A stretch of DNA of 64,000 bases from Blattabacterium sp. (Blatta orientalis) str. Tarazona. GTDB lineage: Bacteria; Bacteroidota; Bacteroidia; Flavobacteriales; Blattabacteriaceae. Below, piece after piece: positions 44,114 through 50,739 of the stretch; the first letter of the stretch is position 1; each line of letters opens with the position of its first letter. The position numbers were made by a program, and so were the translations under genes. The notes under the pieces were generated by a model, which made no database searches, was not told where the DNA came from, and saw only the letters and a program-made list of their open reading frames with translations. The stretch spans positions 124,001 through 188,000 of the forward strand of contig NC_020195.1 of the NCBI RefSeq assembly GCF_000334405.1, given 5' to 3'.

Positions 44114-45466
44114 TTGACACTTGTAAGATCTTCATCTGGAATAAGAGGTACACTGGGAGGGAAAAAAGGGGAAGGTTTTTCTCCTCTAGAGATTATCAAA
44201 TTTTCAGCAGGATATGTTTCCTGGATGAAAAGGAAATATAAGTATAAAAATAAATATTTAGTAGTATTAGGCAGAGATGGACGTATGACTTCTTCCATTT
44301 TTCAACGATTTTTGGTTATAACTTTTCAGAGTCTTGGAATAAATGTCATTGACATTGGTTTATCTACAACCCCTACTGTTGGTATAGCCGTTATGAATGA
44401 AAAAGCAGATGGAGGTGTAATGTTAACAGCTAGCCATAATCAAAAAAATTGGAATGGATTAAAGATGTTTAATTCCCAAGGGGAATTTTTGTCTGAAAAA
44501 GACTTTCAAAAAGTATTTCATATAGTGGAAAAGGAGTATTTCTATTTTGCTTCTTTTAATAAATTAGGTACTCATCGGTATAAAAAAAATTATATTCATA
44601 AACATATAGATACTATTCTTTCTTTACCATTGGTAGATAAAGAGATTATTAAAGAAGCTAGATTTAAAATTGTTGTAGATGGAATTAATTCTACTGGAGG
44701 AATAGCAGTGCCTATTCTTTTAAAATGTTTGGGAGTAAAAGTAATAAAAATGTATTGTGATCCTCATGGAGATTTTATTCACAATCCTGAACCCATTGAG
44801 AAGAATCTAAAAGAAATTTGTAAAAAAGTACCAGAAATGAGAGCAGATTTAGGAATATCTGTAGATCCAGATGTAGATAGAGTGGTATTTATTTGTGAAA
44901 ATGGAGACTTTTTTGGAGAAGAATATACTTTGGTATCAATTGCAGATTATCTATTAGGAAATAAAATAGGACCTATTGTTTCTACTTCATCTTCTTCTCA
45001 TGCCTTAAAATACTTATCTATGAATAAAGGAGCTCCCTATTATTCTACTTCTGTAGGAGAAGTGCATGTTGTGAAAAAAATGAAAGAAGTTCAGGCTATT
45101 ATTGGAGGAGAAGGCAATGGTGGGGTTATTTACCCAGACTTACGTTATGGAAGAGATGCTTTGGTAGGTATTGCTTTATTTTTAACTCATGTAGCTAAAC
45201 TTTCTAAAATATCGTTAACTAAATTAAAAAAAAGATATCCTAATTACTTTATGTCTAAAAGTAAAATTCGATTATCTTCTAATCAAAAAATTGGAGAAAT
45301 CCTAGAAAAAATAAAAGATAAATATAAAGGAAAGAATATGGATCTTGAAGATGGAATTAAGATTTATTTGCTAAATAATGAATGGATCCATGTAAGAAAA
45401 TCTAATACAGAAAATATTCTTCGGTTACATATAGAAAGTTCCTCAAAAAAAGAACAAATTTTTTGA
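44114..45466 (+). CDS. glmM: Phosphoglucosamine mutase
   Basis: Converts glucosamine-6-P to glucosamine-1-P for UDP-GlcNAc, the substrate of MurA. The 450-residue alpha-D-phosphohexomutase begins LVRSSSGIRGTLGGK. It has the phosphoserine loop MLTASHNQKNWNGLK, the metal loop DPDVDRVVFI, the sugar loop GEGNGGVIYPDLRYGRDAL, and the phosphate-binding C-terminal RKSNTENILRLHIES. It starts with TTG at 44114; no in-frame ATG is available near the conserved N-terminus. The family also includes phosphomannomutases, so the exact sugar is inferred from the phylum and the need for UDP-GlcNAc. Confidence 0.88.
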   Translation: MTLVRSSSGIRGTLGGKKGEGFSPLEIIKFSAGYVSWMKRKYKYKNKYLVVLGRDGRMTSSIFQRFLVITFQSLGINVIDIGLSTTPTVGIAVMNEKADGGVMLTASHNQKNWNGLKMFNSQGEFLSEKDFQKVFHIVEKEYFYFASFNKLGTHRYKKNYIHKHIDTILSLPLVDKEIIKEARFKIVVDGINSTGGIAVPILLKCLGVKVIKMYCDPHGDFIHNPEPIEKNLKEICKKVPEMRADLGISVDPDVDRVVFICENGDFFGEEYTLVSIADYLLGNKIGPIVSTSSSSHALKYLSMNKGAPYYSTSVGEVHVVKKMKEVQAIIGGEGNGGVIYPDLRYGRDALVGIALFLTHVAKLSKISLTKLKKRYPNYFMSKSKIRLSSNQKIGEILEKIKDKYKGKNMDLEDGIKIYLLNNEWIHVRKSNTENILRLHIESSSKKEQIF

Positions 45467-45515
45467 CAAAAAAGATTCTATGTGAAGTAAAAAATACTAA
45501 TTAATTTTATAACGT

Positions 45516-45851
45516 ATGTCAAATAAAAATTGTGTGAATTATATAGAAGAAAAATGTATTCAAAAGAATGATCTTCCTCCATTTAGTTCTGGAGATACTA
45601 TCACTGTTTTTTTGAAATTAGAGAAGGAGAAAAAAAAGATTCAATCTTTTAAAGGAGTAGTTATTAAGAAACAAGGAAAAGGATTAACAAAAACTTTCAC
45701 TGTTCGTAAAATGAGCGGAGAAATAGGAATAGAACGTATATTTATTTTCAATCAACCTAATATACAAAATATTGTGATAAATAAAAAAGGAAAAGTACGT
45801 AGATCAAAAATTTATTATTTCAGATTTCTTCGAGGAAAAAGGCAAGAGTGA
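45516..45851 (+). CDS. rplS: 50S ribosomal protein L19
   Basis: Large-subunit protein at the subunit interface. The 111-residue product shows PPFSSGDTITVFLKLEKEKK, IQSFKGVVIKKQGKG, TFTVRKMSGEIGIERIF and the basic end GKVRRSKIYYFRFLRGKR, all standard. It stands alone 49 bp after glmM, and its 3' side runs into a repeat region shared with the convergent lipoprotein gene. Confidence 0.96.
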   Translation: MSNKNCVNYIEEKCIQKNDLPPFSSGDTITVFLKLEKEKKKIQSFKGVVIKKQGKGLTKTFTVRKMSGEIGIERIFIFNQPNIQNIVINKKGKVRRSKIYYFRFLRGKRQE

Positions 45852-45873
45852 AAAATAGATAAGGATATTGTAG

Positions 45874-45985
45874 AACCAAAAGAGAAAAATTTGAACCTCT
45901 CTTCTCCTCTCTTCTCCTCTCTTCTCCTCTCTTCTCCTCTCTTCTTGGTTACTCCTCCTCTCTTCTCTCTCTTCTCCTTTTGGTT
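45874..45985. repeat. 9 bp inverted repeat enclosing tandem repeats (possible bidirectional terminator)
   Basis: AACCAAAAG (45874-45882) and its perfect complement CTTTTGGTT (45977-45985) flank the whole tandem-repeat block between the convergent rplS and lipoprotein genes. The loop is 94 bases, long for a simple terminator. A separate direct repeat TTGGTTACTC occurs at 45945-45954 and 45980-45989. Confidence 0.5.
45896..45945. repeat. 10 bp tandem repeat, five copies
   Basis: The unit CTTCTCCTCT occurs four full times in perfect register from 45901 to 45940, with half units on both sides, giving 50 bp or five copies. An imperfect pyrimidine-rich continuation follows to about 45977. One strand is pure pyrimidine, the other pure purine. 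It lies between two convergent genes and is not translated. Such perfect microsatellites are otherwise absent from this window. Confidence 0.9.
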
Positions 45986-45995
45986 ACTCTTTTTT

Positions 45996-46295
45996 TTATT
46001 TATTGTTCTTTTCGTTCTCTTCGGAAGTTACCTTATCTTTTTCTTTATTGTTATTAGATGTTGAATCTTCATTTTTTGAATTTGAATTGGAAGTTTCTTC
46101 CTCACTAGATGTAGAAGGAGGAGTAGTAGGAGTAGAATTTGTTGTATTTTCATTTGTATTAGCTGTTTTTTCCTCTTCTGTTGTAGTAGGATTTCCATTT
46201 TCGTTTTTAGACTTGTTATTACAACTACTTGTAAATAAAAATATTGCTAAAAAAATTGTGGTTACAGTAATTCTTAATTTTTTCATCATAATCAA
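45996..46295 (-). CDS. Low-complexity lipoprotein of unknown function
   Basis: A 99-residue protein with a clear lipoprotein signal: basic start (MMKKLRI), hydrophobic core (VTTIFLAIFLF) and lipobox TSSC with the lipidated Cys at residue 25. The mature part is almost entirely Thr, Ser, Asn, Glu and Lys, with no fold expected and no family recognised. The ATG could be 46295 or the third codon. It ends just inside the repeat block and is convergent with rplS. A TAAATTTG element 29 bp upstream could be its promoter. The signal peptide and the sustained hydrophilic composition support a real gene; function unknown, possibly a fast-evolving surface protein. Confidence 0.7.
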   Translation of the reverse strand: MIMMKKLRITVTTIFLAIFLFTSSCNNKSKNENGNPTTTEEEKTANTNENTTNSTPTTPPSTSSEEETSNSNSKNEDSTSNNNKEKDKVTSEENEKNNK

Positions 46296-46323
46296 TAGTA
46301 TTTCAGTTATAACATATTCTGGG

Positions 46324-46331
46324 CAAATTTA
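46324..46331 (-). promoter_or_regulatory. Possible -7 element of the lipoprotein gene
   Basis: The minus strand reads TAAATTTG, matching TAnnTTTG, 28 bp before the lipoprotein ATG. No TTG is found at the expected -33 spacing. The remaining gap up to guaB (46332-46510) is A+T-rich with no structure I can support. Confidence 0.3.
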
Positions 46332-46510
46332 TATAAAAATTTGGAATGAAAAAATATATCATTATTTGAATTTTTTTTAAAAAAATTGAAAAATGACATA
46401 TTGAATACTAATTTCTTCTTTTTATTTAGTTTGAAAATAAGAATATTAGATCCTTCTAAATCACTTAACTATTCAAAATTATATATATTTTAAGAAAAAC
46501 TATCAAGATT

Positions 46511-47986
46511 ATGTCTTTAAATAAAAAAATTTTAAAGGAAGCATTAACCTTTGATGATGTATTACTTGTTCCCTCTTTCTCTTCTATTCTTCCATCAGAA
46601 GTATCTCTTAAAACTTCCTTAACATTTGATATAACTCTTAATATCCCCATATTAAGCGCTGCTATGGATACAGTTACGGAATCTTCTCTAGCTATATCCA
46701 TAGCTAGAGAAGGCGGAATGGGGATTATTCACAAAAACATGAATATAAAAAACCAATCGGAAGAGGTTTACAAAGTAAAAAGAAGTGAAAGTGGAATGAT
46801 TGATGATCCCATTACACTATCCAGAAAATCAACACTTAGAGAGGCTCAATATCTTATGAAGAGGTATCATATATCTGGACTTCCCGTAATTGAAAAAGAT
46901 CATACTTTAGTAGGGATTATAACTAACAGAGATATTAAATATCGCATGGATTTAGATTCTTTGGTTGAAGATGTAATGACCAAAGAAAAATTAATTACTT
47001 CTAAAAAGAACATAACTTTAGAAGAGGCAAAAAATATTCTTTTGAAAGAAAGAATAGAAAAACTACCTATTGTAGATGATTTGAAAAAATTGGTAGGTTT
47101 AATTACTATTAGAGATATAGATAATTTGATAGAACATCCAAATGCTTGCAAAGATTCTAAAGGCCGTTTACGTGTGGGAGCAGCTGTAGGCATAGAAAAA
47201 AATACTTTGGATCGAGTAGCCTCTTTAGTAAAAGTAGGAGTAGATCTTATTTCTATAGATTCGGCTCATGGTCATTCTCTCAGTGTATTAAAAATGATAA
47301 AATCCATCAGAACTTCTTTTCCTGAAGTAGTTTTAATAGCTGGAAATATAGTTACTATGGAAGCTGCTAAAGATTTAATAGATGCTGGTTCTACTATTTT
47401 GAAAGTGGGAATTGGCTCCGGATCTATTTGTACAACAAGAGTCATTGCTGGAGTAGGAATGCCTCAAATAACTGCTATACAAGATGTTTATGAATATGCA
47501 AAAAAAAGAAATGTAAATGTAATTTCGGATGGAGGAATCAGATATTCTGGAGACGTAGTAAAAGCTATTGCTGCTGGAGCTAGTTCTGTAATGATTGGAA
47601 GTCTATTTGCAGGAACTGATGAAGCTCCAGGTGAAGAAATAATTTTTCAGGGGAGAAAGTTCAAAACTTATGTAGGGATGGGGTCCTTAGTAGCTATGAA
47701 AAGAGGAAGTAAAGACCGATATTTTCAATTTAAAGAAAAATATGTTCCAGAAGGAATAGAAGCAAAAGTTCCTTATAAAGGAAAAATGAAAGATGTTCTC
47801 TATCAAATTTGTGGAGGATTGCGTTCTGGAATGGGATATTGTGGAGTTTCTACTATTCCAGAATTAATGAAAATGGGAAAATTTGTAACAATCACTAACT
47901 CTGGATTAAAAGAAAATCACCCACATAGTGTAAGTATTACAAAAGAATCTCCAAATTATTTCAATTATAAAAAAATAGGCGAATAG
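46511..47986 (+). CDS. guaB: Inosine-5'-monophosphate dehydrogenase
   Basis: Oxidises IMP to XMP with NAD, the committed step of GTP synthesis. The 491-residue protein begins [20 protein letters not shown]. It carries a CBS pair (about 95-205, ending [10 protein letters not shown]), then [12 protein letters not shown] and the catalytic loop [20 protein letters not shown] with its active Cys. Later parts are [38 protein letters not shown] and the mobile flap. Full length with regulatory CBS domains intact, unlike some reduced genomes. Its end lies 7 bp from the tRNA-Leu on the opposite strand. Confidence 0.97.
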
Positions 47987-48228: not shown

Positions 48229-50739
48229 TTAAGGAAATAATTCATAATCCTTTTTTAGGATAAAAAAGGCTTTTTTTTTGAATAAAATTTTAGGATTTTC
48301 TTGGAAGACTTGATTTTTTTTATCTAACGTTTTTAATATTTCTTTTGCTCTGTGGATTACTCTTGTGGGCATTCCTGAAATTTTTGCTACATGAATTCCA
48401 AAACTATGTTCGCTGCCTCCATCAATCAATGTTCGCATAAAAATAATATTTTCATTAATTTTTTTTACAGAAATGTGGTAATTTTTAATTCTTTTGAAAA
48501 AAGAACTCATTTTGTTTAATTCATGATAATGAGTGGCGAACAAAGTTAAAGGTCTAAAAGAGTTTTCATGTAAAAATTCTACAATAGACCAAGCAATGGA
48601 TATTCCATCATATGTACTAGTTCCTCGTCCAATTTCATCTAAAATAATAAAACTTCTTTTAGAAAGATTGTTTAATATGTTAGCAGTTTCATTCATTTCT
48701 ACCATGAAAGTGGATTCCCCTAAAGAAATATTATCGGAAGCTCCAACTCTGCTAAATATTTTATCTACTAAACCCATTTTTGCATATTGAGCAGGAACGA
48801 AACTTCCAATATGCGCCATTAATATAATGATAGCTGTTTGACGTAAAATAGCTGATTTCCCTGACATATTTGGTCCTGTTATAATCATAATTTGTTGATC
48901 TGTTTTATTTAAAAACAGATCATTAGGAATATAAGAGATTTTAGAAATGAATTGTCTTTCGATTACCGGATGTCTTCCTTTTTTTATACATAGTTCAAAA
49001 GAATGATTTATTTTTGGTTTTACATAATTATTTTCTAATGCAGAAATAGAAAATGAACATAAAACATCTAGTTTTGCAATTATTTTCGCATTTTCCTGTA
49101 AAGGTTTTATATATTTTAATAGTTTGTTGATCAGATTATGGAAAATTTCTTTTTCAAGAGAGAATATTTTTTGTTCGGAATTTAAAATTTGCAACTCATA
49201 ATTTTTTAATTTTTCAGTAGTATATCTTTCTGAGTTAGTTAATGTTTGCTTTCGTATCCAATGAGATGGAACTTTGTGTTTTTTTGTGTTTTTCACTTCA
49301 AAAAAATATCCAAAAATGTTATTATAACCAATTTTTAAATTGGGAATTCCTGTATTTGATTGTTCAATAGAACGGAGTTTTTCCAGATATTCTTTTTTGG
49401 AAAAATATAGAAAACGAATTTTGTCTAATTCTTGAGAAAATCCTTTTACAATTACATTTCCTTTTTCAATATGATTTGGAGGATCCGGATGGATAGTTTC
49501 TGTAATTTTTTTAGATATTATATGACAATTTTGAAAGCTATTTCCTAGTTCTAAAAGAATTTTAGATTTTTGGGATAACAAAATTTTTTTTATCTCATAA
49601 ATAGCTGTCAAAGATTTATGTAATGTAATGATTTCACGTGGAGAAATTCTTCCAATAGCCATTTTTGAAATCATTCGTTCTATATCAGAGATTTCTTTAA
49701 GTTTTTTTTGGATAAAATCACGAATTGAAATATTCGAAAATAATTCTTCTACAATTTGGTGACGTCTTTGTATGGAAGGGACATTGATTAATGGAAAATA
49801 AATCCAATGTTTTAGTAATCTACTTCCCATAGGAGTTAATGTCTGATCTATGATATCAATTAAGGACACTCCTTGTTTATTCAGACCATGAAATATTTCC
49901 AAGTTTTGGAAAGTAAAATCATCAATCCACATGTGTTCTTCTTTTTTAATCCTTTTTATGTTAGAAATATGTTTTATTTTATAATGCTGTGTATCATATA
50001 AATAGCTTAATATAATTCCGGATGCTATAATTCCTAATTTTAGATCTTCAATTCCAAATCCTTTTAAAGAATTTGTTTGAAAATGGGATATTAATTTTTC
50101 ATATGCAAATGGGTAATTGAACATCCAATCTTCCATAAGAAAGGTATAATACTTGTTTTTAAATAATTCATCAAAATACTTTTTTTCTTTTCTCTGAAAA
50201 ATAATTTCACTTGGATTAAAATGTTTTAAATAGTGTAGAAGATTTTCTTTAGTATCTTCTACTATAAAAAATTCTCCTGTAGAAATATCTAAAAAACTTA
50301 ATCCTAAGTATTTTTTATCTGCATGAATAGAGGCTAAGAAATTATTGGATTTAGTTTGTAAAATATTTTCGTCTATAGCTATTCCCGGAGTTACTAGTTC
50401 TATAACTCCTCTATTAACAATATTTTTTCCTTTTTTTGGTTCTTCTAATTGATCACAAATAGCAACACGATGTCCTGATCGTATTAGTCTTGGTAAATAA
50501 TTATTTAAAGAGTGATAAGGAAAACCAGCTAAATGAGTATTTTTGTGATTATTTGATCTTCTAGTTAAAACTATATCTAATATTTTAGAACACTTGATGG
50601 CATCTTCTCCAAAAGTTTCATAAAAATCTCCTACCTGAAATAATAATATAGTATCTGGATATTTAGCTTTTATATCATTATATTGTTTGAATAATGGAGT
50701 TTCTTCCTTTTGAGAATTAGAATTCTTTTTTTTATTCAT
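48229..50739 (-). CDS. mutS: DNA mismatch repair protein MutS
   Basis: Recognises mismatches and small loops. The 836-residue protein has the mismatch-binding N-terminus with LLFQVGDFYETFGEDA (the Phe-x-Glu lesion wedge in FYETFGE), then connector, lever and clamp domains. The ATPase has Walker A GPNMSGKSAILRQTA, then SRVGASDNISLGESTFMVEM, Walker B FIILDEIGRGTSTYDG, and ATHYHELNKM. All motifs are intact and length is normal, so this is a working MutS1. That is relevant because intact mismatch repair normally suppresses homopolymer slippage, the error type seen in several genes of this window. MutL is not in the window. Confidence 0.96.
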   Translation of the reverse strand: MNKKKNSNSQKEETPLFKQYNDIKAKYPDTILLFQVGDFYETFGEDAIKCSKILDIVLTRRSNNHKNTHLAGFPYHSLNNYLPRLIRSGHRVAICDQLEEPKKGKNIVNRGVIELVTPGIAIDENILQTKSNNFLASIHADKKYLGLSFLDISTGEFFIVEDTKENLLHYLKHFNPSEIIFQRKEKKYFDELFKNKYYTFLMEDWMFNYPFAYEKLISHFQTNSLKGFGIEDLKLGIIASGIILSYLYDTQHYKIKHISNIKRIKKEEHMWIDDFTFQNLEIFHGLNKQGVSLIDIIDQTLTPMGSRLLKHWIYFPLINVPSIQRRHQIVEELFSNISIRDFIQKKLKEISDIERMISKMAIGRISPREIITLHKSLTAIYEIKKILLSQKSKILLELGNSFQNCHIISKKITETIHPDPPNHIEKGNVIVKGFSQELDKIRFLYFSKKEYLEKLRSIEQSNTGIPNLKIGYNNIFGYFFEVKNTKKHKVPSHWIRKQTLTNSERYTTEKLKNYELQILNSEQKIFSLEKEIFHNLINKLLKYIKPLQENAKIIAKLDVLCSFSISALENNYVKPKINHSFELCIKKGRHPVIERQFISKISYIPNDLFLNKTDQQIMIITGPNMSGKSAILRQTAIIILMAHIGSFVPAQYAKMGLVDKIFSRVGASDNISLGESTFMVEMNETANILNNLSKRSFIILDEIGRGTSTYDGISIAWSIVEFLHENSFRPLTLFATHYHELNKMSSFFKRIKNYHISVKKINENIIFMRTLIDGGSEHSFGIHVAKISGMPTRVIHRAKEILKTLDKKNQVFQENPKILFKKKAFFILKKDYELFP

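Follow-up and report, generated by a model that had tools for sequence, protein, structure and literature searches.

A perfect 10-bp tandem array in a putative shared terminator between rplS and a lipoprotein gene in the Blattabacterium of Blatta orientalis

What is a perfect tandem repeat doing between two genes of the Blattabacterium symbiont of Blatta orientalis, and does it vary a surface protein, act at transcript ends, or do neither? We examined this locus within a window of 64,000 nucleotides (the whole stretch of DNA analysed, whose numbering is used throughout) from a genome (G000) whose chromosome measures 634,449 bases and whose plasmid measures 3,735, and compared it across 49 whole Blattabacterium genomes, two further records corresponding to G027 and G012 not being counted twice. 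The array is made of five error-free copies of CCTCTCTTCT at 45896-45945, a period-10 run of 50 nt. The original prediction of five perfect copies holds for this unit but not for the rotation in which it was given, CTTCTCCTCT, which occurs in four full copies starting at 45901, 45911, 45921 and 45931. A 9-bp inverted repeat around the array had also been proposed and was recovered, with AACCAAAAG (45874-45882) and CTTTTGGTT (45977-45985) matching in 9 of 9 pairs across a 94-nt loop. The array and both arms all lie within the 144-nt spacer that separates rplS from the lipoprotein gene, and the features of the locus are as follows.

45516-45851, + strand: rplS, ribosomal protein L19 (Pfam PF01245, Ribosomal_L19, E 8.1e-34)
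45874-45882, + strand: 5' arm of the putative terminator stem, AACCAAAAG
45896-45945, + strand: five perfect copies of CCTCTCTTCT, all-pyrimidine on this strand, inside the stem loop
45933-45954 and 45968-45989, + strand: imperfect 22-nt direct repeat containing the 3'-arm end, copies 86% identical
45945-45950, + strand: proximal decoy copy of the 3'-arm end, TTGGTT, with no T-tract behind it
45977-45985, + strand: distal 3' arm, CTTTTGGTT, partner of 45874-45882 by computed pair probabilities
45990-45997, + strand: T8 tract after ACTC, putative U-tract for the rplS direction, overlapping the lipoprotein stop codon
45996-46286, - strand: small lipoprotein-like gene, 96 aa from an MKKLR start, with a homologue here in 49 of 49 genomes

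The second copy of the 3'-arm end (TTGGTTACTC) is situated past the array and ahead of the distal arm, within the imperfect direct repeat. What we take to be a mutS-like gene lies near the block, at 48229-50739 of the window.

The array is a real, statistically outstanding and lineage-specific repeat. Its TRF score is 115, as against 66 for the runner-up in the 64-kb window and at most 81 in nine further samples of 20 kb from this genome, none of whose 37 rows scored 100 or more; window and sampled stretches (180 kb) together cover 244 of 638 kb. Across 40 dinucleotide-shuffled windows no period-10 run exceeded 21 nt, so that the 50 nt observed display a head-to-tail perfection beyond chance, as expected of a slippage minisatellite. 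The block also contains a pure pyrimidine run of 51 nt, the maximum of the window, followed by one of 30 nt in the same block and then by a purine run of 23 nt. The same 40 shuffles gave at most 25 nt for pyrimidines and 29 nt for purines, and the longest pure run in the 180-kb sample was 27 nt.

Searching the 49 genomes with a 20-nt array pattern at up to 3 mismatches returned matches in three: G000 (4 overlapping matches, one array), G022 (8) and G030 (1). The matches in G022 belong to an unrelated coding array, and at the rplS-lipoprotein junction the pattern was found, at up to 3 mismatches, in G000 only and in none of the other 48 genomes. As only one of the 49 genomes has the array at this position, we see no sign of its retention by selection, and the earlier view of a block kept between two genes is not supported by the comparison. 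A mobile element or wider repeat family was rejected, the pattern occurring in only 3 of 49 genomes with the coding array of G022 among them, as was a known RNA family, for which 45400-46600 gave no Rfam match at gathering scores. The array of G022 (L141 4665-4942; G022:C1, ~516.7 kb) is itself an in-frame 15-bp tandem array of 18.5 copies, read as (EEKKG/EKKKG)n close to the C-terminal end of a 361-residue protein, presumably PASTA-type by its appearance, and is possibly a length-variable coding repeat. In the parts considered of PMC4567559, PMC7821994, PMC6039017 and PMC6128925, from the literature on Blattabacterium tandem repeats and on the B. orientalis genome, we found no description of the array; the portion of PMC4567559 covered mentions tandem repeats only as a general assembly problem.

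Given its pyrimidine run, the block might act at the level of DNA, as a triplex-forming (H-DNA) polypyrimidine tract or as a barrier between converging polymerases. The run is indeed the longest of the window, but its best perfect mirror symmetry is 17 nt, compared with 16 nt in another tract of the window (pure purine or pyrimidine tracts of at least 15 nt were compared), and an element of this kind also sits poorly with an array confined to one of the 49 junctions. H-DNA was rejected on this weak symmetry, and a DNA-level role appears the least probable of the explanations weighed here.

We next consider the neighbouring gene, described beforehand as a low-complexity lipoprotein gene rich in Thr, Ser, Asn, Glu and Lys, a description borne out by the mature protein, in which N, T, E, S and K account for 65 of 74 residues. 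Its homologues, present in 49 of 49 genomes, are 86-109 aa long; their N-terminus is conserved for the most part (usually MKKLRI..., with Cys22 in G000), and their Ser/Thr/Asn/Glu/Lys tail changes fast. The lipobox is non-canonical (FTSSC in G000, FTISC in 22 genomes), and the only Pfam match falls under the curated cut-off.

The array had been placed at the 3' end of this gene and read as a contingency locus, its copy number varying the lipoprotein or its expression. It is in fact positioned outside the gene, 50 nt past the stop codon (45996-45998, which is 10 nt from the distal arm), and not within a reading frame as the repeat of a contingency locus would be. Moreover, the C-terminus (...EENEKNNK) is identical in G031, a genome without the array, and the low-complexity tail varies through in-frame indels among array-less genomes. 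The reading frame of the lipoprotein is thus untouched, and the proposed surface-protein variation is therefore unsupported; extension of a reading frame into the array was likewise rejected, as inspection of the three minus-strand frames gave no hint of use. In favour of a contingency locus, the array lies where the lipoprotein transcript should have its 3' untranslated region and, because its copies are perfect, is probably young and length-unstable. Against it, besides the position of the array and the unchanged C-terminus, the organism is described as intracellular and maternally inherited (PMC6128925), and so has no obvious need for surface variation. We consider this explanation highly improbable, though the array might still vary the ends of transcripts.

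What do relatives carry at the same place? The convergent order of rplS (+) and the lipoprotein gene (-) was found in 49 of 49 genomes (the lipoprotein was located by script in 48 and, in the last, locus L117, during the reading of spacer hairpins). In G000 the junction falls between convergent stop codons, rplS ending at 45851 and the lipoprotein stop lying at 45996-45998, as expected of a bidirectional terminator. The best hairpin of each spacer was scored with a small loop-length penalty, which works against G000, and compared with 40 shuffles. In this test, which covers the rplS-lipoprotein junction only, the observed score was reached by 0 of 40 shuffles in 41 of 49 spacers and by 2 or fewer in 43 of 49; the remainder were L137 (3 shuffles), L115 (5), L140 (13), L117 (14), L114 (20) and G000 (23). 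The loop of the best hairpin measures 23 nt or less in 41 of 49 spacers, a count that includes L114 with its hairpin at chance level. Longer loops were found in L117 and L129 (30 nt each), L026 (36 nt), L027 (47 nt), L115 (48 nt), L140 (52 nt) and L116 (54 nt), whilst the 94 nt of G000 form the longest loop of the 49.

The stems differ in sequence, with matching partners present for the cores GCAAAA (12 genomes), GCGAAA (13), ACGAAA, CCAAAA and TCAAAA (2 each). Complementary cores of all kinds, rarer ones included, occur in 40 of 49 genomes, a count that illustrates covariation and is no test of it, since the cores were picked by eye after reading the hairpins and complementarity was required; no stem with 8 perfect pairs of the chosen core kinds was found in the other 9 of the 49. 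A recurring hairpin with one A-rich and one T-rich arm, set between convergent stops, looks like a shared intrinsic terminator, which would end transcription in both directions. Because most relatives carry such a terminator-like hairpin at this site, both rplS and lipoprotein transcripts would be expected to end where the array sits, and in this respect the original prediction is upheld by the comparison of sequences.

Several other spacers merit description in their own right. The hairpins of G021, G034 and G064 (L114, L117 and L140) do not rise above shuffled sequence; these genomes may therefore no longer have the terminator. The spacer of G011 (L020) contains a perfect 18-bp tandem duplication at offsets 49-84, two copies of TTTTTAAAATCAATCCTA, beside the hairpin. 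Cytosine exceeds guanine in 36 of 49 spacers, falls below it in 7 and equals it in 6, these being relatives and not independent cases. Short degenerate repeats are found in the 177-nt spacer of G008 (L005), which has a G-less stretch of 135 nt (30 C), and in the 153-nt spacer of G034, with one of 118 nt (20 C).

How the array arose is suggested by the two closest relatives. A tree built on partial sequences of three flanking genes places G067 beside G000 (support 0.983) and G031 next to this pair (support 1.0), the respective identities to G000 being 94.0% and 92.3% over 2,013 sites. G031 displays a compact form, AAAACCAAAAGAGA followed by 19 nt and TCTCTTTTGGTTTT, with the same arms as in G000. 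G067 has the same 5' arm, and its 3' arm is interrupted by extra CTCTTTT-like copies (TCTCTTTTATCTCTTCTCTTTTG). In G000, CCTCTCTT, an element of the G031-like 3' arm, is now part of the 10-bp unit. An order of events resting on these three genomes can be proposed, in which the ancestor would have carried a compact hairpin, AACCAAAAGAG / CTCTTTTGGTT, as G031 does today, and duplication within the 3' arm would have occurred before the split of G000 and G067, or twice independently. The CCTCTCTT piece of that arm would then have doubled and expanded in G000 into five perfect units of 10 bp, whilst a single copying of the arm end TTGGTTACTC would have left a proximal decoy and, beyond it, the true arm with its T-tract. 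The slippage-type array that had been proposed is supported, and from these comparisons we infer that it arose in the loop and 3' arm of the putative terminator, by slippage as the presumed mechanism.

The array is likely to be near-neutral. No benefit need be invoked, as slippage and drift would suffice in a small, vertically inherited population; Blattabacterium is reported to pass through a bottleneck at each host generation and not to recombine (PMC6128925). Could the array instead be an assembly artefact, either misassembled or with a true copy number that differs? The genome of the B. orientalis symbiont is represented by a single assembly with no reads, which leaves room for such an error. 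The block, however, is about 110 nt long between unique flanks, presumably short enough for ordinary reads, and the sister genome G067 has related duplications in the same arm. We regard an artefact as very unlikely. Taken together, this analysis suggests, with a probability of roughly 0.75, that the block is an intrinsic terminator common to rplS and the convergent lipoprotein gene, and that slippage or a local duplication enlarged its loop and 3' arm in the B. orientalis symbiont lineage.

Folding predictions indicate what this expansion may have done to the terminator. On the + strand of G000 the 5' arm is predicted to pair with the distal 3' arm, at probabilities of 0.80-0.99 for 8 of the 9 pairs and 0.48 for the ninth, with a folding energy of -11.8 kcal/mol (130 nt) as compared to -16.8 for G031 (75 nt). 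Transcripts ending at 45950, 45960 or 45975 are predicted to pair with the proximal arm instead, at -8.5 to -9.3. In the rplS direction a T-tract is present, ACTC being followed by T8 at 45990-45997, and the stretched stem may still stop rplS transcripts. Given the long-loop fold and the decoy arm without a T-tract, a weaker and slower terminator is expected in this direction; the array has thus probably weakened the terminator relative to those of relatives. In the lipoprotein direction the stem of G000 has no T-tract behind it, the minus-strand sequence there being CTACAATATCCT, and termination in that direction is consequently doubtful in this genome. A 9-bp stem closing a 94-nt loop is also not the stable short-loop stem of a typical intrinsic terminator, and a simple terminator scan, with a loop limit of 8 nt, found none at the block.

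The predicted fold leaves the array unpaired. A further explanation is that the expanded loop serves as a rut site, the rplS-sense RNA being long, mostly unpaired, rich in C, poor in G and regular at a 10-nt period, so that Rho loads on it and ends transcripts where the stretched intrinsic terminator fails. Base composition favours it: 45895-45972 (78 nt) contains 36 C and 2 G, a C minus G of 34 that is unsurpassed in the 244 kb scanned, the value elsewhere reaching at most 23 in the window on either strand and 24 in the 180-kb sample (background of the window: mean -1.5 on the + strand, SD 6.2). Rho itself is encoded in 49 of 49 genomes, above the family cut-off in 48 (the exception, Rho of G064, adjoins a stretch that reads N), and has its RNA-binding domain in G000. 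Cytosines also recur every 11-13 nt, the spacing used by RhoTermPredict (PMC6407284), which additionally requires a downstream RNA polymerase pause site. This spacing criterion is lax, however, for when C must not be outnumbered by G the two strands of the window alone still yield 65 and 139 matches; C-richness follows automatically once a pyrimidine arm is amplified, and the loop is found in one genome only. Because the criterion is lax and amplification of the arm would give C-richness anyway, we hold a rut site to be unlikely. A related proposal, that slippage turned an intrinsic terminator into a Rho-dependent one, with the compact hairpin lost and a rut-like site gained in one step, is slightly more doubtful again. 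The lineage of G034 and G064, with hairpins at the level of shuffled sequence and G-less stretches of 118 and 57 nt, would be a second and weaker candidate for such a change of class.

If the block is an expanded shared terminator, the three related genomes, compact, mildly altered and stretched, provide an ordered example of terminator change, illustrating a path by which slippage might erode or alter a terminator where drift dominates the genome. Should the C-rich loop recruit Rho, it would represent a one-step route between the two bacterial terminator classes, and terminators could then switch class without an open phase of read-through. Otherwise the array is a curiosity of this locus, which might serve as a length marker for the Blattabacterium of Blatta orientalis.

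Intergenic tandem repeats in an obligate endosymbiont have a parallel in Portiera of whiteflies; for the Portiera of Bemisia tabaci, both repeats and rearrangements are described as accompanying loss of the proofreading gene dnaQ (PMC7821994). Unlike Portiera, G000 has one outstanding array in 244 kb, and large repetitive intergenic regions of the Portiera kind are, in the text of PMC6039017 covered here, stated to be absent from the Blattabacterium genomes compared. With rut sites (PMC6407284) the block shares a C-rich, G-poor RNA of about 78 nt with regular cytosines, predicted to be unpaired; it differs in having apparently arisen by repeat amplification, and in that Rho is here a candidate actor only. 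The closest likeness in layout is to bidirectional intrinsic terminators such as those of Bacillus cereus, where conservation is reported to be higher for terminators common to convergent genes than for those of co-oriented ones (PMC5381666). The 94-nt loop, the perfect 10-bp array, the decoy 3' arm and a stem with no minus-strand T-tract behind it set G000 apart from these. Like them, the junction nevertheless lies between convergent stop codons and has an A-rich 5' arm and a T-rich 3' arm, and among Blattabacterium genomes the arms differ whilst their complementarity stays.
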